From positions 20,407 through 84,406 of IMG/VR virus record IMGVR_UViG_3300036770_008728: a stretch of 64,000 bases of DNA; one strand, written 5' to 3'. Position numbers and translations under genes: made by a program. Origin of the DNA: a virus. This document shows, piece after piece, positions 1,756 to 64,000 of this stretch; the stretch's first letter is position 1, and each line of letters begins with the position of its first letter. A model generated the notes under the pieces. It saw only the letters and a program-made list of their open reading frames with translations. It was not told where the DNA came from and made no database searches.

Positions 1756-2285
1756 ACCCGCACATTCCGTCTTCGCTGGGCTTGTGCATCGTAAAGGCGC
1801 TGATCGGGTACATATCTTCCCAGTTCATAGCCCCGTTTAAACTGAAGTCCCCCGAACGCCATAAACAGGGTTTCAGCAATATTCGCTTGATTGCCCAGTT
1901 CACTCAGTAGCGCCACCAGCGATTTTTCTTTGGTTGGGCCATAGTAGTTCTGAAATTTCAGGGGATATTCACCCCCTGATTTGCGGTGATAAAAAAACTT
2001 CCGCTTAACGGTTTCATCCGACAGCGGGCGGTACTGGTAGATACCACCCATCCAATCGTTATTTACCCGGAACTGCTTTGATGAGCTAAAGCCTTCAACC
2101 GAATCCGCGATGGATTCAACACCCAGGCGACCAGAACCCGACACTGTTGCACTGATTTCTTCTTTTATCAGCGACGTGATCCGCTGCTCGACCGTTAAAT
2201 TCACATCGGCTGCAGCCTGATGCTGAAGGCTTTTCAGAACCCCAAACAGTTGCTTGGATAGCGCGGCCATGACCGGGCCACTCAT
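1752..2285 (-). CDS. Late structural protein, possible head-tail connector or tail completion protein
   Basis: The 177-aa protein starts with a long N-terminal helix (AALSKQLFGVLKSLQHQAA) and ends in a basic tail (QRRRNVRV). In many siphophages and myophages a protein of this size in this position is the gp10-like or tail completion protein, but no diagnostic motif was seen. It overlaps both neighbours by 4 bases, so the genes are tightly coupled. Confidence 0.45.
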   Translation of the reverse strand: MSGPVMAALSKQLFGVLKSLQHQAAADVNLTVEQRITSLIKEEISATVSGSGRLGVESIADSVEGFSSSKQFRVNNDWMGGIYQYRPLSDETVKRKFFYHRKSGGEYPLKFQNYYGPTKEKSLVALLSELGNQANIAETLFMAFGGLQFKRGYELGRYVPDQRLYDAQAQRRRNVRV

Positions 2286-2776
2286 GAGCCAACCTCGACC
2301 CGGTATACGCCGTTTAGAAGCGCCACATGGCTGACACGTAGGCCATTTATCTTGTGATTCGTCGTCGCCGGGTACGCCATGTAGTAAACGAGCTGAGGGA
2401 CTTTCAGGCCCAGAACTTCCGAACTACTGACTAAATCCTGACAAACCTGAACTTTAATTGCAGGACCATCCACAGGGTTCCCTTTCATCTGGGTCACTGG
2501 ATTGATGGTGGTGAGAATTTCACGAATGGTGACTTCTGCGTTCAGCTCTAATGCTGCAAACACAGTGCTGTCAGAGTTCAAATGGTGGTTTGCCAACACA
2601 AAAGCCGGCCGGCCACGTTGGTAAAGAAACTCTCCGGGCTTAACCGCCGAACCGTCAAGGATATGAACAAGGCTTTTCACCGGACCCAGTAGGCGAAACC
2701 CGTCTGCCGGTTTGGTCAGTACCGCAGAAACGTTTTTATTTCCAATCCGGTACTTCCGATGGTCCATGTTATTCAC
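2282..2776 (-). CDS. Late structural protein, possible head closure protein
   Basis: The 164-aa, mostly beta-predicted protein (alternating hydrophobics in RLLGPVKSLVHILDG and RVSHVALLNGVYRVEVGS) has the size and position of a head-closure/head-tail joining protein. It is not recognised from sequence alone. It starts inside the end of 2769-3467 and ends inside the start of 1752-2285, so all three are in one translationally coupled string. Confidence 0.45.
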   Translation of the reverse strand: MNNMDHRKYRIGNKNVSAVLTKPADGFRLLGPVKSLVHILDGSAVKPGEFLYQRGRPAFVLANHHLNSDSTVFAALELNAEVTIREILTTINPVTQMKGNPVDGPAIKVQVCQDLVSSSEVLGLKVPQLVYYMAYPATTNHKINGLRVSHVALLNGVYRVEVGS

Positions 2777-3467
2777 CCGTCAGCGGGTCAGTGACTGAGA
2801 CCACCGTCAGAAGCGGTTCATAGTCATCCACTGGTACGTAATTGAAGTGAGTCACTAACAACGACTGGAACTGGGCATACAGTTCGCCCTGCAGCTTCAC
2901 ATAGTCAATGCTCTGCCGGGTCATTTTGTGGTCATCTACTTCTCGGGTTTTCAGTAAACGCAAAGGCAGAGTAGGGATCTGGCTTATGGCCACATGCAGC
3001 AAAAGGGCCTTGTTTGCATGACTGACCTTACTGACATCTGTAAAAAGGTCCTGATTCAGGATTTCAGAAACCTCCAGATAGCCGGCATAGATATCAAATA
3101 CTGAATCTGGTAGCTCCTCGTTTGAGGCTCCCAGCAGATTCCGCACTTGTAATGGTGTGACTGTGATTGGTTTGAAACGCACCACGCGAACCGGTGAGCT
3201 CCAAGTGATTTGCTGGCTTGCCGAAACAAACGTCACTTCCATAAACAGGAATTTAGACAGCTCATTTGAGTCCAACGAAAAATTGCTGGCCGGAACTAAC
3301 CAGTCCGGCTCAGCCAAATCCAGATAAACCTTGTTACCCAGAGCCACACCAGACACATCACGCAGTACTACAAACAGGTCCTCTGCGGGATCTGGTGTGT
3401 AGAACTCATCATTTACCAGAAATTCCTTTTGTAATTTCAATGGTGTCTGTGTGCGAATTTCGATCAT
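2769..3467 (-). CDS. Late structural protein, possible head-tail adaptor
   Basis: The 232-aa protein starts one base inside the stop of the Ala-rich gene upstream. The N-terminal half looks beta-rich and the middle contains a helical segment (VRNLLGASNEELPDSVFDIYAGYLEV, about residues 107-132) of the kind found in head-tail adaptors (gp6/gp15-like). Assignment rests mainly on genome position between capsid and tail genes. Confidence 0.45.
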   Translation of the reverse strand: MIEIRTQTPLKLQKEFLVNDEFYTPDPAEDLFVVLRDVSGVALGNKVYLDLAEPDWLVPASNFSLDSNELSKFLFMEVTFVSASQQITWSSPVRVVRFKPITVTPLQVRNLLGASNEELPDSVFDIYAGYLEVSEILNQDLFTDVSKVSHANKALLLHVAISQIPTLPLRLLKTREVDDHKMTRQSIDYVKLQGELYAQFQSLLVTHFNYVPVDDYEPLLTVVSVTDPLTGE

Positions 3468-4000
3468 TATTTTTTGCCCTTGTTGGCGCCAGCGTCGGCT
3501 TCTTCCTGAGCCTTTTTCGCAGCTTCAGCAGCCGCGGCAGCATCGGCTTCTTCCTGAGTCTTTTTCGCAGCTTCAGCAGCCGCGGCAGCATCGGCTTCTT
3601 CCTTGGCCTTTTTCGCAGCTTCAGCCGCAGCGGCAGCGTCGGCTTCTTCCTTGGCCTTTTTCGCAGCTTCAGCCGCAGCGGCAGCGTCGGCTTCTTCCTG
3701 AGCCTTTTTCGCAGCTTCAGCTGTAGCCTGTTCGTCTTCCACATCACCACTCAGAATGGCTTTGAATGACGCTACGGCCAGTTCGAAATCACCCTCAGCG
3801 GCCTGATAGCATTTCAACCATTCAGCATCCGTGGCATGACCTGGCAGTTCTTCAGCCACACAGAGCTTTACCTGACCACGAGCAATATTCTGATCCAGAA
3901 AACTGGATTTCGACACGACCGAAGGCCGGTCATGGTGATATTCGTCACCGTTAAAGTCCGTCAGATAAACCGGACCAACTGTTTCAACTAAACACTTCAT
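3467..4000 (-). CDS. Virion-associated protein with Ala/Lys/Glu-rich 16-residue repeats
   Basis: The 177-aa protein has a globular N-terminal half (to about residue 90) and a C-terminal half of five near-perfect 16-residue repeats of the type AEAAKKAQEEADAAAA, ending in GANKGKK. Such EAAK-rich repeats form long rigid helices. The gene directly follows the major capsid gene, from which a UUCG stem-loop separates it (4019-4038). A capsid-surface spacer or head-tail linker is plausible; the true role is unknown. Confidence 0.6.
   Translation of the reverse strand: MKCLVETVGPVYLTDFNGDEYHHDRPSVVSKSSFLDQNIARGQVKLCVAEELPGHATDAEWLKCYQAAEGDFELAVASFKAILSGDVEDEQATAEAAKKAQEEADAAAAAEAAKKAKEEADAAAAAEAAKKAKEEADAAAAAEAAKKTQEEADAAAAAEAAKKAQEEADAGANKGKK
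3495..3722 (-). repeat. 48-bp in-frame tandem repeats (five copies)
   Basis: Five 48-bp units encode the 16-residue repeats of the preceding entry. Units differ by a few bases (for example KKAQ, KKAK, KKTQ variants), so the array probably grew by slippage or unequal exchange and may vary in copy number between relatives. Confidence 0.8.
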
Positions 4001-8412: not shown

Positions 8413-10179
8413 TTAGTATCGAGTAATGATGTTTTTGCCCCGGCGGGTCTGAGGCTCAAAGCCAATCAGGTCCATCGCAGCCCAAATTTTTGTGTCATCG
8501 AGTTCAACTTCATCCATCACAATCGAATCATCAACGTGCTGGTAATCGCCGGCAAAGCTTTGGAAATCGAAGTTCCGAACACCCGCAACCATGAAGGCCA
8601 GTGCGTGGAAGTAGTGATCGTTTTCGTTGAGCTTGACCCAGGTGGCCTCGTCTTCACCGGTACCTTCTTCCCGAACCATGTCCATCAAATGGGTCGTCAG
8701 TGTGGATTTGTCGTCCCGGTAACCGGCTAGTTTCCATGTGCCGTTCCGGATGCCGTTCGCCACGGTATCGAGCATCGCCGTCCGGCCTGCCCGTACCGCA
8801 GCCTGTTCCAAGAACTCATCTTTGATGGGCATGAACTCCCGGCCCTTGCCATACTCGACCGGCATAATCAGACCAAAGCTCTGGTCCCGGATAGCATTCG
8901 AAGTCGGGGTGTATGGGTAGCGGTCGATACCGCCGGACACAATGTTGTACTGCTCCCTGAGTCCCTTAACCTTCAACGAAAGGTTGTCAGCGCTGCAGGT
9001 TTCAAACCGAAACACGGTCAGGTTATCCACGTCTGGACCAACAGCCAGAACGATATGGCAGGTAGCGCCAACGTCGATTCCAATGAAGACAGGGTGACCC
9101 TTTGCCGGCTCAAGCACCGAATCCTGAATCATCACAGCTTCGATTTGTTCCTGGGTCAGCCGGCTATTGCCCTGATCGTAGGTTTCACCTAAAACCGTGT
9201 TGTGGAAACCCTTGAGGTTATTCCGGCGCTTGTAGTCAAACAGCTGGGTAACAACGTACTTCGCATCCAGTGTGTGGGTGGAAAACGGCCGAACGTGATA
9301 ACCCCGGTGGTGCGTCCGGTTCGGATACTTGGCCACCCAGGCTCGGGATTCATAGTCGGCCATGTTCAGCCGGCGCCGGCACTTCTCACAGGTGATATGC
9401 AGGGCATCAAGGTCAATCAGACCGTCATCCAGTAACCGCGGCTCCAAATCAATGAGCGAGTTCACCCGGTCAGTCAGGCCGGGGATCCGGATGAATTCCT
9501 TGGTGAACAGCGGAATTTGCCAGTGATTGCAGGCGCGGCACTTAATCATGAACTCGTGCTGGTCACTGGCCGCATAACCCTTGTGAATCCCGAACCCGTT
9601 GTAGGTGGGTGTACTGAAGCGCTGCCGGATACGGAGGTCTGAACCCTGCAAACGCGAGTTGAACAGCGCCAGCATACTCTGGTCAGTCAGGTCCACTTCG
9701 TCGTTAAAAATGAAGTCCGCGTTGATACTGGTGGCATCGCCCTCAGTCGAGCCGGTGACATACATGAACGAGGTCCCGATTTGCATCAGGCCCATCGAGT
9801 TTTTCACGTCGCCGCTTAGTCGGAACGCCTTGGCATCCGACTGCAAAATTGGCTGAATACGGGTTTTCGATATCCGCTTGAACATCTTGTCATTCGGCAT
9901 CGTGTAAATCAGTGACCGGTTATCCGTCCGCGTCAGAATCGACAGGGCCTTTCTGATTTGGATTTCAGTCAGGCCCACCTGTGATGGCTTCATGCAGTCC
10001 AAGTTTTCGTGCATGTCGTCCGCGATGGCTCTCTGAAAAGGGTACTTGTCAAAGGTAAACGGCTTTTTGTTCAGCGTGGTGTTGATGCACATGAACTGGC
10101 CGTGCGACATCCCGCTACTGTCCTTGTTGTAGCGCTTTGTCGCATCCTTGATGAAGCCACCGAGGTACTGGTTCGCCAT
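8413..10179 (-). CDS. Terminase large subunit, GpA-type
   Basis: The 588-aa DNA-packaging motor has an N-terminal ATPase with a Walker A variant KPSQVGLTE (about residues 63-71) and Walker B in ADFIFNDEVDL (about 154-164). A zinc-binding pattern follows (CRACNHW and CEKCRRRL, about 215-270). The C-terminal nuclease begins at VFIGIDVGATCHIVLAVG (about 370). The zinc knuckles mark the lambda GpA-like family, which usually makes cohesive ends. The ATG start overlaps the stop of the holin-like gene (TGATG); a GTG lies one codon upstream. Confidence 0.85.
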   Translation of the reverse strand: MANQYLGGFIKDATKRYNKDSSGMSHGQFMCINTTLNKKPFTFDKYPFQRAIADDMHENLDCMKPSQVGLTEIQIRKALSILTRTDNRSLIYTMPNDKMFKRISKTRIQPILQSDAKAFRLSGDVKNSMGLMQIGTSFMYVTGSTEGDATSINADFIFNDEVDLTDQSMLALFNSRLQGSDLRIRQRFSTPTYNGFGIHKGYAASDQHEFMIKCRACNHWQIPLFTKEFIRIPGLTDRVNSLIDLEPRLLDDGLIDLDALHITCEKCRRRLNMADYESRAWVAKYPNRTHHRGYHVRPFSTHTLDAKYVVTQLFDYKRRNNLKGFHNTVLGETYDQGNSRLTQEQIEAVMIQDSVLEPAKGHPVFIGIDVGATCHIVLAVGPDVDNLTVFRFETCSADNLSLKVKGLREQYNIVSGGIDRYPYTPTSNAIRDQSFGLIMPVEYGKGREFMPIKDEFLEQAAVRAGRTAMLDTVANGIRNGTWKLAGYRDDKSTLTTHLMDMVREEGTGEDEATWVKLNENDHYFHALAFMVAGVRNFDFQSFAGDYQHVDDSIVMDEVELDDTKIWAAMDLIGFEPQTRRGKNIITRY

Positions 10180-10544
10180 CACTTGGTCTTCTTTTCGAGC
10201 TCAATCGACAGCTGGTTCAGCTTCTCGTTGAGCTGGGTGAGTTGCGTCAGCACCCGATCCGTTTGTTGTGCTGACGCCGCCTGATTTGCATCAAGCGTTT
10301 TCTGGAACGCGGCTAACCGGTTGTCCACAGAGGTCTCAAGCCGGCCGACGGCGCCATTGAAGTCGGCCTTCGACAGATACTCGTCTTTCATCGAGTACTG
10401 CCGGTCATCGAGTTTCTGCATCCACACAAACATCACCGTTAAGCCGGCCATGATGAATGGACTCACGAAAATCGCAGCCTGGTGTAACCAGTGCAGCGCT
10501 GCGTGGGCATTCTGAGTGCCGAGTTGTTTGTTATCTTCAGACAT
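10179..10544 (-). CDS. Holin- or spanin-like membrane protein
   Basis: The 121-aa protein has one clear membrane helix (AAIFVSPFIMAGLTVMFVW, about residues 23-41) followed by a long coiled coil with heptads (VDNRLAAFQKTLDANQ, LTQLNEKLNQLSIEL). It is encoded directly after the endolysin and overlaps it by 8 bases, so a lysis role is likely. A single N-terminal anchor plus periplasmic coiled coil fits an i-spanin as well as a holin. Confidence 0.6.
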   Translation of the reverse strand: MSEDNKQLGTQNAHAALHWLHQAAIFVSPFIMAGLTVMFVWMQKLDDRQYSMKDEYLSKADFNGAVGRLETSVDNRLAAFQKTLDANQAASAQQTDRVLTQLTQLNEKLNQLSIELEKKTK

Positions 10545-11082
10545 TGCCACCGGCCTTACGGAAAATTTCCCGGGCACACTTCAGGTCGATGTCATAGAAA
10601 ATCACGCTGTCTTTTTGTTTGATGGTGAAGCCCATGCCGGCCAGGTTCCCGCAGCCGATGTGTAGCCACGTCACCGAATCACCTTCTTCGACAAAGGTGA
10701 TGAACGGGTAGAGTTCCGGATGTTTTTCAATATGGTCGCGGACTTCCGCCGCCGGTGTGGTACTGAACGTGATGTCCAGTGCTCGACCAAAACTATGGTC
10801 TGAGAATTGTTTGAAGTGCGGGTCGCCCGGTAATCGCAGGCCACGGTACTGCAGGTTCCCGCCAAACGACCAGTTGTTTATCGTCGCGGTACCAATCTTC
10901 TGGCCTTCTTCGTCCAGACAGAACCTGTCGGCCAGAGCGTCGGCCATCATCAGGATCCGTGGGTCGATATAACGCAGAACGCGGTTTTCCCCTAACTGCT
11001 GGAACGCCTTCTGACTTACCAACTCTGCGGGCTTGAAGTGGCGCGGGCGGTAAAAATTAAGCGCGGTGCTCACGTCCGACAT
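10537..11082 (-). CDS. Endolysin, M15 family peptidase
   Basis: The 181-aa protein carries the M15 zinc peptidase motifs: SDHSFGRALDI (His96, Asp103) and WLHIG (His141), as in phage L-alanyl-D-glutamate peptidases of the T5/A118 type. These cut the peptide stem of peptidoglycan at the end of infection. No signal peptide is seen, so export would depend on a holin. It is the first gene of the minus-strand late operon and has the leader AGGATTAACAAGCATG. Confidence 0.85.
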   Translation of the reverse strand: MSDVSTALNFYRPRHFKPAELVSQKAFQQLGENRVLRYIDPRILMMADALADRFCLDEEGQKIGTATINNWSFGGNLQYRGLRLPGDPHFKQFSDHSFGRALDITFSTTPAAEVRDHIEKHPELYPFITFVEEGDSVTWLHIGCGNLAGMGFTIKQKDSVIFYDIDLKCAREIFRKAGGNV

Positions 11083-11215: not shown

Positions 11216-11740
11216 ATGTCAGAGCAGAAAAAAGAACCCCGTGAGTACCCCAGAATCACCCCATCCATGGAAGATATGCTGGTCGAACTGGCTCAAATGT
11301 ACCGCCAGTACCCGGATTTTCTGACCCATAAAGACTGCAAATACCCACTGGCAGTAAAAAACGCCATCGCCGCGATTGCAGCCAAAAATGGCTCTGTTGC
11401 ACCGGTTTCAGCTCAAAAGCTCGCAGATACCAATCAAAACTCAACCGAAACCACCGAAATCTCTCTGGAAGAGGTCGATATTCACCAAGAATCCACGCTT
11501 TTGTTCCAAAACCTGAAGACGTTTATGAAGGACATGAGCAAGATGGAGACCAGTGAAAAGGCCCAAATCTTCCGAACGGCCACAGCACTGCTCGAAAAAT
11601 TACTCACCATCAAAGAGAAATCGAGCGGCATCCAGAAGTATGAGGATTTCAAAGCGCTGGTTATGAACACCCTCGACCGGCATCTGACGCCGGTTCAGAT
11701 AACCGGATTTATCGAGCAGCTGGAAGAACTGGAAAAGTGA
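11216..11740 (+). CDS. Possible terminase small subunit
   Basis: The 174-aa protein has a low-complexity centre (NQNSTETTEISLEE). Its helical C-terminal half (SEKAQIFRTATALLEKLLTI, DFKALVMNTLDRHLTPVQITGFIEQLEELE) resembles the C-terminal region of some small terminase subunits. It starts at the conserved leader and is divergent from the lysis-terminase operon. If it is TerS it would bind the packaging site and load TerL. The alternative is an early regulator of late transcription. Confidence 0.4.
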   Translation: MSEQKKEPREYPRITPSMEDMLVELAQMYRQYPDFLTHKDCKYPLAVKNAIAAIAAKNGSVAPVSAQKLADTNQNSTETTEISLEEVDIHQESTLLFQNLKTFMKDMSKMETSEKAQIFRTATALLEKLLTIKEKSSGIQKYEDFKALVMNTLDRHLTPVQITGFIEQLEELEK

Positions 11741-11890: not shown

Positions 11891-12622
11891 TTACGCCTGC
11901 GCCACTCCAATGGCAACCAGAATTTTCATCAGCGCCTGAGACCGGCTGCAACCAAAAGCCGATTCGATTTCCCCCAGTAATTCCACCTGCCAGGGTAGCA
12001 ATGAAACCGCCATCACCGGCCGGTCAGTCCGACCAGATTCCAGCTGAAAGTTGCTGCAGTCCACAAACGGAACCGGGTTGTCCGCATACTGTTTCATCCA
12101 CTTCCGCAGCAGGTTCCCATACTTGGCGCCGTAATCCAGTAACCGGCTTTCCAGTTCAGTTGTCAGTCGAATGGGTGCCCTTTGTCCCTGCCCAGACTTC
12201 GGCCGACCCTTTGTTTTGGTCTCAGGTTTAGTTTCATCGGGTAAGGTCGGAGCCTTGGCCACCACCGGTAACTTGGCCAGGTCCTTCCCATGCCGGTAGT
12301 TCAGGCCCGACCAAAAGAGCAGGTCCGCGGCCGCGACCAGCGTCGTGCCATGCTTCTGAGCAAAGCGCTCGACCAGACCGGCCGTTTTCGCACTCACCCG
12401 AATCGACTCCGTTGGCCGGCTCGACTTCAGCCCCAAGGCATCATGCCGGCTCACCCCCTTCAGCAGCCCCAAGGTCACCAGCTCGTCCGGGTCCAGCCCG
12501 TCCAGCAAAGCGGCCAGAGGCAGCTCGTCATCCGCCGGACTGTGGACGTGAAGTTTTACCCGAGTCTGAAGCGGGGCGGTGTTTGGGTGTTGGAGGTGGT
12601 TCAGGGGCGGGCTGGTATCCAT
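11891..12622 (-). CDS. Regulator with three ribbon-helix-helix-like segments
   Basis: The 243-aa protein has a disordered Pro-rich N-terminus and then three strand-helix-helix segments: ESIRVSAKTAGLVERFAQKHG (about residues 72-109), RAPIRLTTELESRLLDYGAKYG (about 146-178) and RPVMAVSLLPWQVELLGEIES (about 199-240). A Lys/Gly/Pro-rich linker (KPETKTKGRPKSGQGQR) lies between the first and second. Multi-RHH chains are unusual, since the fold normally dimerises. It is a lone leftward gene with its own terminator, divergent from 12858. The palindromes in 13602-14673 are possible targets. Confidence 0.6.
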   Translation of the reverse strand: MDTSPPLNHLQHPNTAPLQTRVKLHVHSPADDELPLAALLDGLDPDELVTLGLLKGVSRHDALGLKSSRPTESIRVSAKTAGLVERFAQKHGTTLVAAADLLFWSGLNYRHGKDLAKLPVVAKAPTLPDETKPETKTKGRPKSGQGQRAPIRLTTELESRLLDYGAKYGNLLRKWMKQYADNPVPFVDCSNFQLESGRTDRPVMAVSLLPWQVELLGEIESAFGCSRSQALMKILVAIGVAQA

Positions 12623-12857: not shown

Positions 12858-13601
12858 ATGAACAAATTAGCTGCTTTCTCTAAAAACATCGTTGCTGCAA
12901 TGGAATCTCAGCGCTCCGGTGCGTTGGTTGTAAATTTACTGCTGACGCAGCTGCAGGTAGGTCAACCAGCTTTAACTACTGCTGACTGCTGGACTTTGGT
13001 CGGCGGTGCGGGCAAACCAACCAAAAAGAATTCGTTAGTTTACTACCGCGCCAGTTCACTGCAGAAAACCGCTAAGCAGGTGAGCGAGATTTTGCAACAG
13101 CCAGCGGCAACAGATTGGGATCAATTCAATACGCTGCTGAATGCCGTTGACTTTGCGGATGAACAACTGCAGGCCCAACCGGCATATCTGGCGCTGCAGG
13201 GCTTCATTGCAATGAAAGGTTGTCATGCCTGCAATGGTTCTGATATCCGTGAATTTATCGCCACATTGCGCCCAGCCAGTGAACAACCTGCAGCGGGCAA
13301 AGCACAGGGCACAGAATCACAGCAAACAGCCACAGCCAGCGCACCGGACACGGTATCAGCTGAGGCCGGCACCACAGCGGGCAACACTGAAGCGGAAATT
13401 GATTTAGCCGCGTCAATGCTGGCAGATCTGGCAACGGCGGATAATATCGTTGGCAAAACTATTGCCAGCCTGATCGGCCTTGATCCGGTTGTTGCCATGC
13501 AAAAACTGGCTGAGGCTTGGCAGGCTGACCGCGCCAGACTGCTGAAAGAGATCAATACTCTCGAAGCTGCAGCGGAAAAACGCGAGACCAAAGCGGCGTA
13601 A
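12858..13601 (+). CDS. Unknown early protein with Ala/Glu-rich linker
   Basis: The 247-aa protein is not recognised. Residues 1-145 look globular, with cysteines in MKGCHACNGSD (about residues 117-127). Residues about 145-195 are low complexity (Ala, Thr, Gln, Glu). The rest is helical and ends in a charged coiled coil (DRARLLKEINTLEAAAEKRE). The ATG at 12858 is chosen over 12807 because it is preceded by the leader GGGATTAATAAAC. A stem-loop follows the stop. Confidence 0.55.
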   Translation: MNKLAAFSKNIVAAMESQRSGALVVNLLLTQLQVGQPALTTADCWTLVGGAGKPTKKNSLVYYRASSLQKTAKQVSEILQQPAATDWDQFNTLLNAVDFADEQLQAQPAYLALQGFIAMKGCHACNGSDIREFIATLRPASEQPAAGKAQGTESQQTATASAPDTVSAEAGTTAGNTEAEIDLAASMLADLATADNIVGKTIASLIGLDPVVAMQKLAEAWQADRARLLKEINTLEAAAEKRETKAA

Positions 13602-13618
13602 TCCAGCCCGACCGACGA

Positions 13619-13641
13619 ACGGGGCCACCACCTGGCCCCGT
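13619..13641 (+). terminator. Stem-loop after gene 12858-13601
   Basis: ACGGGGCCA pairs with TGGCCCCGT around a 5-base loop, 18 bases after the stop. The U-tract is weak. Confidence 0.5.
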
Positions 13642-13859
13642 CAATCCCTATTTGTACACATGCACCGCCCAGGCGCAGGCCCGGACGGCCGTTGTGCATT
13701 TGTGCGTAAGAAAGACTTTTTCAAATAATCAGGGTGGGGAAGTTACTACCGGTTATTTGAAAGGGCCTTGAATTTCCGCGAAGGCCGGAATTTGGACGTT
13801 TTTTCTGAAAGTAGAACCACAGGAGGTTCTGACTTGCATGAAAAAAGTGAATATATGCA

Positions 13860-13884
13860 GGTCAGACCCTAGGTTCTAATTATA
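13860..13884 (-). repeat. Copy 1 of a duplicated 25-bp promoter/operator-like element
   Basis: The minus strand reads TATAATTAGAACC, one variable base, then AGGGTCTGACC. It matches 24 of 25 bases at 39179-39203 on the plus strand. It contains a -10-like TATAAT and a near-palindrome GGGTCTGACC placed where a repressor could block early elongation. Confidence 0.7.
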
Positions 13885-13924
13885 AAGAGAACCATTTCAT
13901 TAATGGTTAGGATCTGAACCTAGG
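13868..13924. repeat. Nested inverted repeat (cruciform-capable)
   Basis: The outer arms CCTAGGTTC (13868-13876) and GAACCTAGG (13916-13924) are perfect complements. Inside them AACCATT (13890-13896) and AATGGTT (13902-13908) form a second stem with a 5-base loop. Confidence 0.75.
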
Positions 13925-14002
13925 CGGCGCCACGTCAGACAAGGGCTGCAGAGGAGTTGACCATCACCATTTTAGGGTCGTGTTCCGATTATGGTTAAAA
14001 TC

Positions 14003-14054
14003 AAAGTGAATAAATATTCATTGAATGGTTATTTATGCAGTTTTTATTCACTTT
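14003..14054. repeat. 12-bp perfect inverted repeat, T-rich 3' side
   Basis: AAAGTGAATAAA (14003-14014) pairs with TTTATTCACTTT (14043-14054), with a small palindrome ATTCATTGAAT inside. The right arm is followed by TGTTTTG, so on the plus strand it could also terminate transcription. Confidence 0.65.
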
Positions 14055-14263
14055 TGTTTTGCTCAGGGTCTGACCCAGACTCAGGTTGACGTTTTTGGCC
14101 TGTTCGACTACTCGCGTCAGGGTGTTTTTGTGATGTAGTCGGACGGCTCAAGGCGTCGTTGTGGTGCTGATTGTACGTCGCGGCCAGCGCGTCGTTGTAG
14201 TTCTGGCTGTGAATTCCGTGACGGAACCCGAACGGGAGTGTATTTACTACCCGAACCACAGCC

Positions 14264-14317
14264 GGACCCTGACCCGGACCCTAAAAGTATATCTAAAGTG
14301 GACCCTGACCCGGACCC
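14264..14317 (+). repeat. Exact 18-bp direct repeat, 36-bp pitch
   Basis: GGACCCTGACCCGGACCC occurs at 14264-14281 and 14300-14317. Each copy holds three GACCC units; further GACCC units follow at 14333, 14375, 14411, 14508 and 14556. The layout is iteron-like. Confidence 0.75.
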
Positions 14318-14673
14318 AACTAATCAGCATCTGACCCGCTACAGCCCTACTCCCACAAGGCTTTCAGGCGTTCAGACCCTAACCCTTTTTCACAGTCACA
14401 CCCTTATTTTGACCCCCGCAAGCAGCTGGGTGTGGCTGTGGTTTTTATTCCGACGCTGACCTGACCACTGCGCCAGGTTGTGTCCTTTGTGGCCTGGGGC
14501 GCGTTCAGACCCTTTTGCCTACCCTGAAACTGGTGTTTTTCCGACTTATAATTTTGACCCGCTCAAACCCTTGAATTTGCGCGAGTTTTGGAATTTGGAC
14601 GGTTTTTCACCTATGAATTAATCGAAAAATTTGGGTAGTAACTTGCCCACCAATCAAAATTAAGGATTAACAA

Positions 14674-14973
14674 ATGAGCTCAGCACTGCACCAGAAAATC
14701 GACGCGATGATAGTGAACAAGCCGGGGCGCTTTGTGCTTCTGACCCAGACCATGAATGGCCAACAGGAGCAGGAGTTCACCAACGCTCTGGACCTGCTTG
14801 CTGCAGCCAAATCCTTTGCGGCCACCAGTCTCTTTAACGGAGAACCTCTGTGTCCTGTGGACATGATGTATGTCCAGGCTGGCCAGAAGAAATGGACCTG
14901 GACCCCGCAGGACTACAACGAGCTGCGGGGCCTTGAGCAGACCCCGAACTTCCGTATTTGGCGAGCTGCTTAG
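14674..14973 (+). CDS. Unknown small protein
   Basis: The 99-aa protein is unrecognised. It starts at a leader variant (TTAAGGATTAACAAATG) and is the first gene after the repeat block. It is Gln/Trp-rich (QQEQEF, KKWTWTPQDYNELRG) with no membrane segment. Confidence 0.55.
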   Translation: MSSALHQKIDAMIVNKPGRFVLLTQTMNGQQEQEFTNALDLLAAAKSFAATSLFNGEPLCPVDMMYVQAGQKKWTWTPQDYNELRGLEQTPNFRIWRAA

Positions 14974-31162: not shown

Positions 31163-32185
31163 ATGAACATGCGTTTTGAATTTCCGGCAGTCAAAGGTCG
31201 CCAGGGTGACCGTGATTTTTATATTGCCTCTATCCCATTTTCAGTACTGGGACGTCTTTTAGAAATTGATGCAGGTAACCCCCTGCAACGAAGCCAGCGC
31301 GTCGTTGATGCTGGCCGAGCAACGGCGATTGTCGATTACTTCTATCAAAACAACGACAACTACGTGCTTCCAAGTTTAACTGGCGTGGTTGAAGACCCCA
31401 GTTTGGATTTCAAAGATGTCGGCGGTGGCGCCGGAGTTTTATCACTGAAGATGGATGCCATCATCAAGCTGTTTGATGGACAACACCGTGCGACGGCTAT
31501 TACTTCAATTGTGAAATCACATGCTTTCCGCAGTAAATGGGAAGACCAGACCATTGGTGTGCAGCTGTTTGTTGGCATGACCTTGCCACAACGTCAGCAG
31601 GCGTTCTCCGATATCAACAGCAAAGCCAAGGCCGTGAGTAAGTCCCTGAACCTGGCCTACGATGTCCGCGACAAAACAACGGCTGAGTTCCGGCAACATG
31701 CTGAATGGGTGTTCGGGATCCATGTGGACTACGAAAAGAACATAGCGACGAAGGGGCAACTGACGTGGTTCAGCTTCAAACATGTTGTGGATTGCTTCCG
31801 GCTGCTCTGTGGTATGAAAGCCAAAGACAAGTTTACCAAGGCGTCCAGTGAATTAATCATGCGTTGGTTTAACCATGTGGAATTGCGTCGGTCCTGTGAC
31901 TGGAATCATGGCCATAAACCAGATCATATCAGCCGAACGGCACTGGGCTTGCTGGCACTGACTCGCGTCTTTAACTATGCCCATTCGGCTCAGATCACTC
32001 CAGACGAGCTGGCTGTCAGCTTGGCTAAAATTGATTTTAACCGTGAGAACCCGCTGTGGTTAAACGTCTGTGTGGATGCGAAAGGCCGGATGATTGCGAA
32101 CCCGCAGTCAATTAAGGCCACGGCACGGAAGATACTGGAAGCCTGTGAATACACAGTCCCAGCGGATTGTCCGGCTCTTCAGTAA
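31163..32185 (+). CDS. DGQHR-domain protein (DndB-like)
   Basis: The 340-aa protein has the signature FDGQHRATAI (104-113). Around it is the family pattern of DndB-like proteins: RSQRVVDAGRATAIVDYF, QQAFSDINSKAKAVSKSLN and a helical C-terminus. DndB regulates phosphorothioate DNA modification in bacteria, and the DGQHR fold is related to ParB-type proteins. No dndCDE or dpd partner genes are in the window. It forms its own unit between two identical-stem cassettes. The molecular role in phage is open. Confidence 0.8.
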   Translation: MNMRFEFPAVKGRQGDRDFYIASIPFSVLGRLLEIDAGNPLQRSQRVVDAGRATAIVDYFYQNNDNYVLPSLTGVVEDPSLDFKDVGGGAGVLSLKMDAIIKLFDGQHRATAITSIVKSHAFRSKWEDQTIGVQLFVGMTLPQRQQAFSDINSKAKAVSKSLNLAYDVRDKTTAEFRQHAEWVFGIHVDYEKNIATKGQLTWFSFKHVVDCFRLLCGMKAKDKFTKASSELIMRWFNHVELRRSCDWNHGHKPDHISRTALGLLALTRVFNYAHSAQITPDELAVSLAKIDFNRENPLWLNVCVDAKGRMIANPQSIKATARKILEACEYTVPADCPALQ

Positions 32186-39136: not shown

Positions 39137-39236
39137 CCAATTAGATCAGATACACATTCTAATTAAAATGTGTGTCTATATAATTAGAACCGAGGGTCTG
39201 ACCCGCTAAAAACAATCAAAATTAGGATTAACAACC
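39137..39236 (+). promoter_or_regulatory. AATTAGA-rich control region with copy 2 of the 25-bp element
   Basis: AATTAGA repeats at 39139 and 39182 and its inverse TCTAATT at 39158 form overlapping dyads: TTCTAATTA (39157-39165) with TAATTAGAA (39181-39189), and AGATACACATT with AATGTGTGTCT around them. The 25-bp element (39179-39203) provides TATAAT and the palindrome GGGTCTGACCC (39194-39204). The leader AAAATTAGGATTAACAACCATG follows. It is likely a promoter with operator. Confidence 0.6.
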
Positions 39237-39533
39237 ATGGCTAAATCTGCCTTGAATTTCAAAATTTTTAACCTGTTCACCAGTGCGATTGGGATGAATG
39301 AAGCTCAAACCAACCCACACAACGACCGGTTGAACGAGCTGTCCATTATGTCCAATTCAATGCTGACCCATTACCTGGTGGCTCCCGCTGCCGAGCGGCA
39401 ACAAGTACTGACTCAGCTTCAAGAAACGTTGAATTTGGCGCTGGACCAGCTTCAAACCGGCCTGGCTCTCATCGAAGAAGAGCAAGCCCTCCTGCAGGCG
39501 GAGATTACCCCCTTGTCGAATACAGAAAGCTGA
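39237..39533 (+). CDS. Unknown small helical protein
   Basis: The 98-aa protein (MAKSALNFKIFNLFTSAIGM onward) is helical in its second half (QQVLTQLQETLNLALDQLQT). It is the only gene between the AATTAGA-rich promoter region and a terminator, so it is a single-gene unit with its own regulated promoter. Its identity is unknown; it may be a key regulator. Confidence 0.5.
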   Translation: MAKSALNFKIFNLFTSAIGMNEAQTNPHNDRLNELSIMSNSMLTHYLVAPAAERQQVLTQLQETLNLALDQLQTGLALIEEEQALLQAEITPLSNTES

Positions 39534-63061: not shown

Positions 63062-64000
63062 ATGAAAGTTGCCGTTTTAGGTGCTGCTGGTGGTATTGGT
63101 CAGGCCTTATCATTATTACTGAAGTTAAATCTGCCAGCTGGTACTGATTTGGCTTTATACGATCTGGCTCCGGTTACGCCAGGTGTTGCTGTAGACTTAA
63201 GCCATATCCCAACCGCGGTAAAAGTGACGGGTTATGGTAAAGATGATTTACACACTGCATTAGCTGGTGCTGATGTCGTGATGATCCCGGCAGGTATGCC
63301 ACGCAAACCGGGTATGGACCGTTCAGATTTGTTCAATATCAACGCCGGCGTGGTGAAAACGCTGGCAGAAGCTATTGTGCAGCAGTGTCCAAAAGCATTA
63401 GTTGGTATTATCACTAACCCGGTAAATACTACTGTTGCAATCGCCGCTGAAGTATTCAAAAAAGCCGGCACCTATGATGCAAAACGTTTATTCGGTGTTA
63501 CGACACTGGATGTTATCCGCGCTGAAACTTTCATCGCTGAATTAAAAGGTAAAAATCCTGCTGAACTGATCGTTCCGGTGATCGGTGGTCACAGCGGTAC
63601 CACTATTCTGCCTTTATTGTCACAAGTCAAAGACGTGACATTTACAGACGAAGAAGTAGCTTCTCTGACTTACCGCATCCAAAACGCGGGTACAGAAGTT
63701 GTTGAAGCAAAAGCCGGTGGCGGGTCAGCAACGTTATCTATGGGTCAGGCCGCAGCCCGTTTCTGTGTATCTTTGATCAAAGGTCTGCAAGGCGAATCGG
63801 TCACTGAATATGCCTATGTTGAAGGCAACGGCGAGCACGCCCGCTTCTTTGCTCAGCCAATTGTGTTAGGTAAAAATGGTGTCGAAGCGTTGTTAGACAT
63901 TGGTACTTTAAGTGCCTATGAACAGAAAGCAATGAACGATATGCTGCCAACATTAAAAGCTGATATCGTGCTTGGTGAAGAGTTCGTCAACAAAGCGTAA
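63062..64000 (+). CDS. mdh: Malate dehydrogenase
   Basis: The 312-aa, complete protein (stop at the last base of the window) oxidises malate to oxaloacetate with NAD in the TCA cycle. Family marks: GAAGGIGQ (7-14), substrate-binding arginines in [10 protein letters not shown] (about 78-87), the region [12 protein letters not shown] (about 146-157), and catalytic IGGHSGTT (about 174-181). It is a chromosomal gene that fixes the insertion site. Its AT-richer codon use contrasts with the phage. Confidence 0.95.

Follow-up and report, generated by a model that had tools for sequence, protein, structure and literature searches.

A gene-free, repeat-dense block near the terminase genes of a probable provirus is a candidate chromosome-end region

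The window, the whole stretch of DNA analysed here, comprises 64 kb of an 84,406-bp IMG/VR record that opens with a tyrosine integrase gene and closes exactly at the stop codon of a complete bacterial malate dehydrogenase gene (63062-64000). Given the integrase at its start and the malate dehydrogenase at its end, the record is most likely the integrated provirus of a temperate phage, and the latter gene probably represents host DNA past the provirus end. Products encoded in the window include terminase, a major head protein, DNA polymerase, helicases, ligase, SbcCD and a 1171-aa primase-helicase, and the phage belongs to the siphophage group of Pseudoalteromonas phage KB12-38, Achromobacter phage JWF, Caulobacter phage Seuss and Acinetobacter phage EAb13. 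There is also a DndB-like gene (31163-32185; PF14072, 6.8e-54), linked to DNA sulfur modification and present too in KB12-38, and the gene at 3467-4000 contains five 48-bp tandem repeats (3486-3769), apparently an alanine-rich stretch.

Between the gene that ends at 13601 and the gene that starts at 14674 there are ~1,070 bases in which the only ORFs, on both strands, are overlapping ones of 57-73 aa, none of them credible as a gene (Table 1). The original prediction, which placed a gene-free block at 13733-14651, therefore holds, the true stretch being slightly wider. Rfam and tRNA scans were both empty, no DNA similarity to the region was detected among 50,697 phage and 72,556 plasmid records, and IMG/VR yielded no relatives of either flanking gene. 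The number of 8-mer repeat pairs in the block is equalled by just 2 of 171 windows from the same genome; the count of its top 7-mer, taken alone, is unexceptional (5/171). Its long direct repeat matches at 33 of 40 positions, as originally reported, above the 28 obtained as the best of 60 shuffles. Counts of the word GACCC are 13 on the + strand and 2 on the - strand, against a mean of 2.2 and a maximum of 7 in 1000 shuffles. This excess is real, but the copies are scattered over 13865-14560, 12 of them within 14072-14560 and with tight clusters at 14265-14281 and 14301-14317, and do not form the single continuous run of about twelve units described originally. Dyads, likewise part of that description, are present at 13712-13769, 13868-13924 and 13997-14060, with DNA folding z-scores of -1.6, -2.5 and -2.7, respectively, although the first alone is not clearly beyond chance. 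The dyad at 13997-14060 (14014/14043) is the best in the block with a score of 26, above the 99% background value of 20 (background maximum 29), and several other dyads in the block compete with it. A 75% similar inverted copy of the 13857-13917 dyad lies at 39146-39206, preceding the gene at 39238, with a GGGTCTGACCC palindrome.

The 18-bp inverted pair near the edges of the block matches at 17 of 18 positions, and no non-overlapping 18-mer pair as good was obtained in 600 dinucleotide shuffles of the block, which bears out the inverted ends originally noted. Each 18-mer is a short hairpin by itself and both were picked, facing inwards, by a terminator scan. The scan count, 4 as compared with 2.7 in shuffles, is only slightly higher than chance, and the assignment of the inverted ends as two inward-facing, terminator-like hairpins is therefore tentative. 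The right 18-mer sits just upstream of the leader of the 14674 gene, CAATCAAAATTAAGGATTAACAAATG, a near-copy of which, CAATCAAAATTAGGATTAACAACCATG, precedes the gene at 39238. Throughout the window, a near-identical leader, (ATTA)GGATTAACAAACATG, stands before ~30 genes and is conserved beyond what a ribosome site requires; immediately upstream, several of these leaders also have a hairpin that is rich in GC and has a loop of the CAAA type.

Table 1. Features of the window, and gene-free blocks with direct terminal repeat (DTR) ends in related phages
Sequence	Feature	Position	Strand	Remarks
Window	Terminase large subunit	8413-10182	-	PHROG 675 at 4.6e-109
Window	Probable terminase small subunit	10179-10577	-	Similar to annotated terminase small subunit gene of KB12-38
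Window	phrog_30421 family gene	11216-11740	+	Synteny anchor, terminase to block
Window	247-aa gene	12858-13601	+	Precedes block
Window	Whole gene-free block	13602-14673		No credible ORF; syntenic gene-free blocks in relatives; predicted chromosome-end/concatemer-processing region
Window	Left 18-mer, GGTGGGGAAGTTACTACC	13733-13750	+	Apex of 13719-13763 hairpin; terminator-like, pointing into block
Window	Direct repeat copy 1	13766-13805	+	Includes TTTGGACGTTTTTT
Window	Dyad, CCTAGGTTCTAATTATAA / TTAGGATCTGAACCTAGG	13868-13924		Related inverted copy at 39146-39206
Window	A+T-rich dyad	13997-14060		Arms 18 nt, loop 28 nt; immediately precedes GACCC array; would span predicted DNA end
Window	Array of same-strand GACCC / TGACCC / TCAGACCC words	14066-14560	+	12 of 13 GACCC
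Window	Direct repeat copy 2	14569-14608	+	33/40 vs copy 1; core TTGCGCGA..TTTGG.ATTTGGA
Window	Right 18-mer, inverted copy (17/18)	14634-14651	-	Terminator-like on - strand, GGTGGGCAAGTTACTACC then CAAATTTTTC, pointing into block
Window	Leader examples	21549, 29531, 36079, 58315	+	Near-identical (ATTA)GGATTAACAAACATG
Window	Leader examples	6898, 29	-	Near-identical (ATTA)GGATTAACAAACATG
fJoAci04	Gene-free block	1781-2782		DTR end 2182
JWF	Gene-free block	79094-80136		DTR end 80076
2-1	Gene-free block	80554-81266		DTR end 81170
Lumi	Gene-free block	80102-81239		DTR end 80497
EAb13	Block, ORF calls all <50 aa	1776-2778		DTR end 2177

KB12-38, the nearest annotated relative, has 54% identity in the terminase large subunit and 50% in the primase-helicase, and excisionase and integrase genes lie at the end of its genome as well. 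A second relative (L013/L043; terminase 58%) has contig ends that overlap by 123 bases and was thus assembled as a circle. Gene-free blocks occur at the syntenic place in KB12-38, L043, two further contigs (L022 and L040), the Achromobacter phages JWF and 2-1, Xylophilus phage Lumi and the Acinetobacter phages EAb13 and fJoAci04, and homologous terminase and phrog_30421 neighbours lie at the distance from the block expected for the JWF/Seuss/EAb13 group. The relatives' blocks, which lie upstream of the terminase genes, are filled with repeats that differ from phage to phage (those of L043, L022 and L040 are repeat-rich, each with different words), and conserved small genes were seen in none of them. 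The KB12-38 block (MF098558.1 35004-36764) holds 6+6 copies of AACCTGTCC, all inside the block. TCAGAC was counted five times for the window (0.56 expected) and five times for L043, and GACAGG six times for L043 and 15 times for KB12-38; in these words, the three closest phages look as if they had one drifting site. The direct repeat of the window carries TTTGGACGTT, a motif confined, among the fetched loci, to the window, KB12-38 and L043 blocks, the latter two having in common an identical 21-mer that contains it; TTTGGACGTTNTTT, with at most one mismatch, likewise has its only other occurrences among these loci in the blocks of KB12-38 and L043. The core of direct repeat copy 2 matches the KB12-38 block at 20 of 23 positions, equalled by 3 of 60 shuffles, and is no more than suggestive of an element common to the two. 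A rule that one C-rich strand characterizes all blocks was rejected, as JWF, Lumi and EAb13 have a positive skew and KB12-38 and L022 a negative one.

Ten copies of a palindrome, GGGGTAACGTTACCCC, are present in KB12-38 (MF098558.1 34089-60015), eight of them immediately upstream of early genes that run rightward and the other two at the start of the block (35018 and 35144), and contig L016 carries GGTGGGGAAGTCCCCACC at a comparable place. A contig from a Comamonadaceae pond MAG (L042; JAIXVK010000627.1) encodes a 97% identical terminase, and so represents a close relative in another environment or was mis-binned there. This contig begins within the terminase, and a search of its MAG genome gave no match to the block.

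Direct information on DNA ends comes from six relatives, all of which were confirmed to have exact end repeats: JWF (1466 bp), 2-1 (1542 bp), Seuss (1748 bp), EAb13 (2177 bp), fJoAci04 (2182 bp) and Lumi (2298 bp). Four of these DTRs had been set by PhageTerm (fJoAci04; Lumi, PMC9959647; EAb13, PMC10508131) or by PAUSE (Seuss, PMC4591317). In all but one, the terminase-distal DTR end falls inside a gene-free block of 0.7-1.1 kb at the syntenic place, the exception being Seuss, where it falls in a 135-bp gap. This end is straddled by an inverted repeat in 5 of the 6 phages, Lumi having no convincing one, and dyads as good or better were found at 0/147, 5/137, 2/143, 0/144 and 0/136 random positions in the same sequences of the five phages; at the other DTR end a straddling repeat is less clear. 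As the six include the close pairs JWF/2-1 and EAb13/fJoAci04, they amount to four independent lineages, three of them positive. A 2.5-kb primase gene, absent from the window, lies between the terminase and the DTR in JWF, Lumi, Seuss and EAb13, and once it is allowed for, the distances from TerL to the block agree. The gene in the position of 12858-13601, matched by position and not by sequence homology, is resident in the DTR of JWF, 2-1, Lumi, EAb13 and fJoAci04.

Given that five of these six relatives have their DTR end within a similar block in the syntenic position, we consider it on balance probable that the block forms the chromosome end of a temperate siphophage, the region at which concatemers are processed and cut for packaging. 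From synteny, we infer that the window phage has a DTR. Lytic replication would yield a concatemer of the genome, to be cut by terminase within the block on the early-gene side of a DTR of ~1-2 kb that would also hold the 12858-13601 gene. The cut is placed at 13997-14060 because this is the strongest dyad in the block and lies directly before the array. By analogy with the dyads at the relatives' known ends, this A+T-rich dyad would straddle an end predicted at ~14015-14042, a weak prediction given the several dyads in the block. The one-orientation GACCC array beside it may be a recognition or processing array for a putative binding protein, and the two edge 18-mers would stop transcription from entering the block. 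Several observations weigh against a chromosome end. In a provirus such as this contig, any DTR would be present just once, and the measured ends come from relatives beyond KB12-38 and L043, the two closest with the block. The Seuss end has only its short gap and Lumi lacks a convincing dyad, the strand bias of the window is missing in KB12-38, where the words are in both orientations, and the repeat words vary between phages so that no conserved cut signal can be named.

The same anatomy would suit a replication origin, with the GACCC words as the iterons of an initiator from the phage and the 13997-14060 dyad as the unwinding element. The repeats are iteron-like, there are A+T-rich dyads and a cumulative GC-skew minimum at 12-15 kb, a primase gene adjoins the equivalent place in JWF, Lumi, Seuss and EAb13, and the KB12-38 block has its AACCTGTCC words. 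We regard an origin as unlikely, however: gene direction switches at the skew minimum, which is therefore not independent evidence, and the Herpes_ori_bp match covers just residues 456-619 of 1171 in the primase-helicase, taken as the helicase part. DNA ends are the only direct data at the relatives' equivalent place, and a genome terminus therefore fits better, although the two roles could coexist at the block. Of the original interpretation as an origin or partition site, what is supported is a fit with a cis-acting DNA site, the block being gene-free, repeat-dense and recurrent at the same place in relatives; the origin or partition role is only a possible one. It is improbable, in our estimate, that one hypervariable locus is both replication origin and terminase cut site throughout a temperate DTR phage family, its repeat word drifting by lineage along with a rapidly evolving DNA-binding protein from an adjacent gene; if so, each phage would gain private recognition of its own concatemers. 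The block also lies where the structural and early gene blocks diverge, and has a promoter-like site (14524-14552), and in KB12-38 and L043 the equivalent position also has leftward genes. A regulatory region of early promoters and operator repeats for the rightward early genes, with a repressor from the leftward 11891-12622 gene, could account for this but is doubtful, as the block is far bigger than a control region needs to be and far richer in repeats, and the 11891-12622 protein has no Pfam match and an unusable structure model (pLDDT 41).

The inverted ends are not a chance match and had suggested a non-autonomous mobile element (MITE) bounded by 18-bp terminal inverted repeats. There is no target-site duplication: the AATCA proposed as such a flank is offset on the left and on the right falls within the leader that precedes the 14674 gene, of the kind found phage-wide and with its near-copy at 39238. 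The right 18-mer is located where other phage genes carry hairpins before their leaders, the region lacks matches in the phage and plasmid records, and no empty site was seen, all relatives examined keeping a gene-free gap or block there. A single exact 18-mer match elsewhere in IMG/VR, in a phage (L056) with no protein similarity to the window, was taken as chance and not as a related copy. A mobile element thus has very little probability. Neutral filler, gathering repeats as nothing is encoded there, would explain the low sequence conservation between phages, but is scarcely more credible with a position and size that persist in a compact genome, motifs common to the three closest phages and a DTR end in relatives.

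To our knowledge, little is understood, T7 apart, of how ends are chosen and duplicated in long-DTR phages. Our comparison delineates a locus that is found family-wide and is fixed in position and character, with lineage-specific repeats and, at most known ends, an inverted repeat across the end. Terminase recognition can be tested directly in phages that already can be grown, and a route is suggested to predicting ends in metagenomic phages of the JWF/Seuss/EAb13 group.

One close counterpart of the window block is that of KB12-38, an integrase-bearing phage in which the gene order is conserved and the block has two copies of a D1-like element and the TTTGGACGTT motif, but it is 1.76 kb long and its array word is in both orientations, whereas that of the window is one-stranded. 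JWF, 2-1, Lumi, EAb13 and fJoAci04 have homologous terminase large subunits (40-49%, tblastn), co-directional early genes and the repeat block that holds the DTR end, and the phrog_30421-family neighbour is evident in JWF, 2-1 and Seuss. These five differ from the window in the 2.5-kb primase gene between terminase and DTR and in their repeat words, and the window phage has an integrase and a DTR predicted from synteny. T7 is an unrelated phage with a 160-bp DTR, and its genome has at the left end no gene before 925 and 11 same-strand copies of CCTAAAG in the first 340 bp, repeats thought to serve processing or packaging. CCTAAAG is absent from the block and occurs four times in the whole window (5.6 expected). 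Both have ~0.9 kb of gene-free DNA, spanning the DTR end in T7, with about a dozen same-strand short words, and by this analogy the block may work like the T7 ends while not being a member of the T7-type end repeats.
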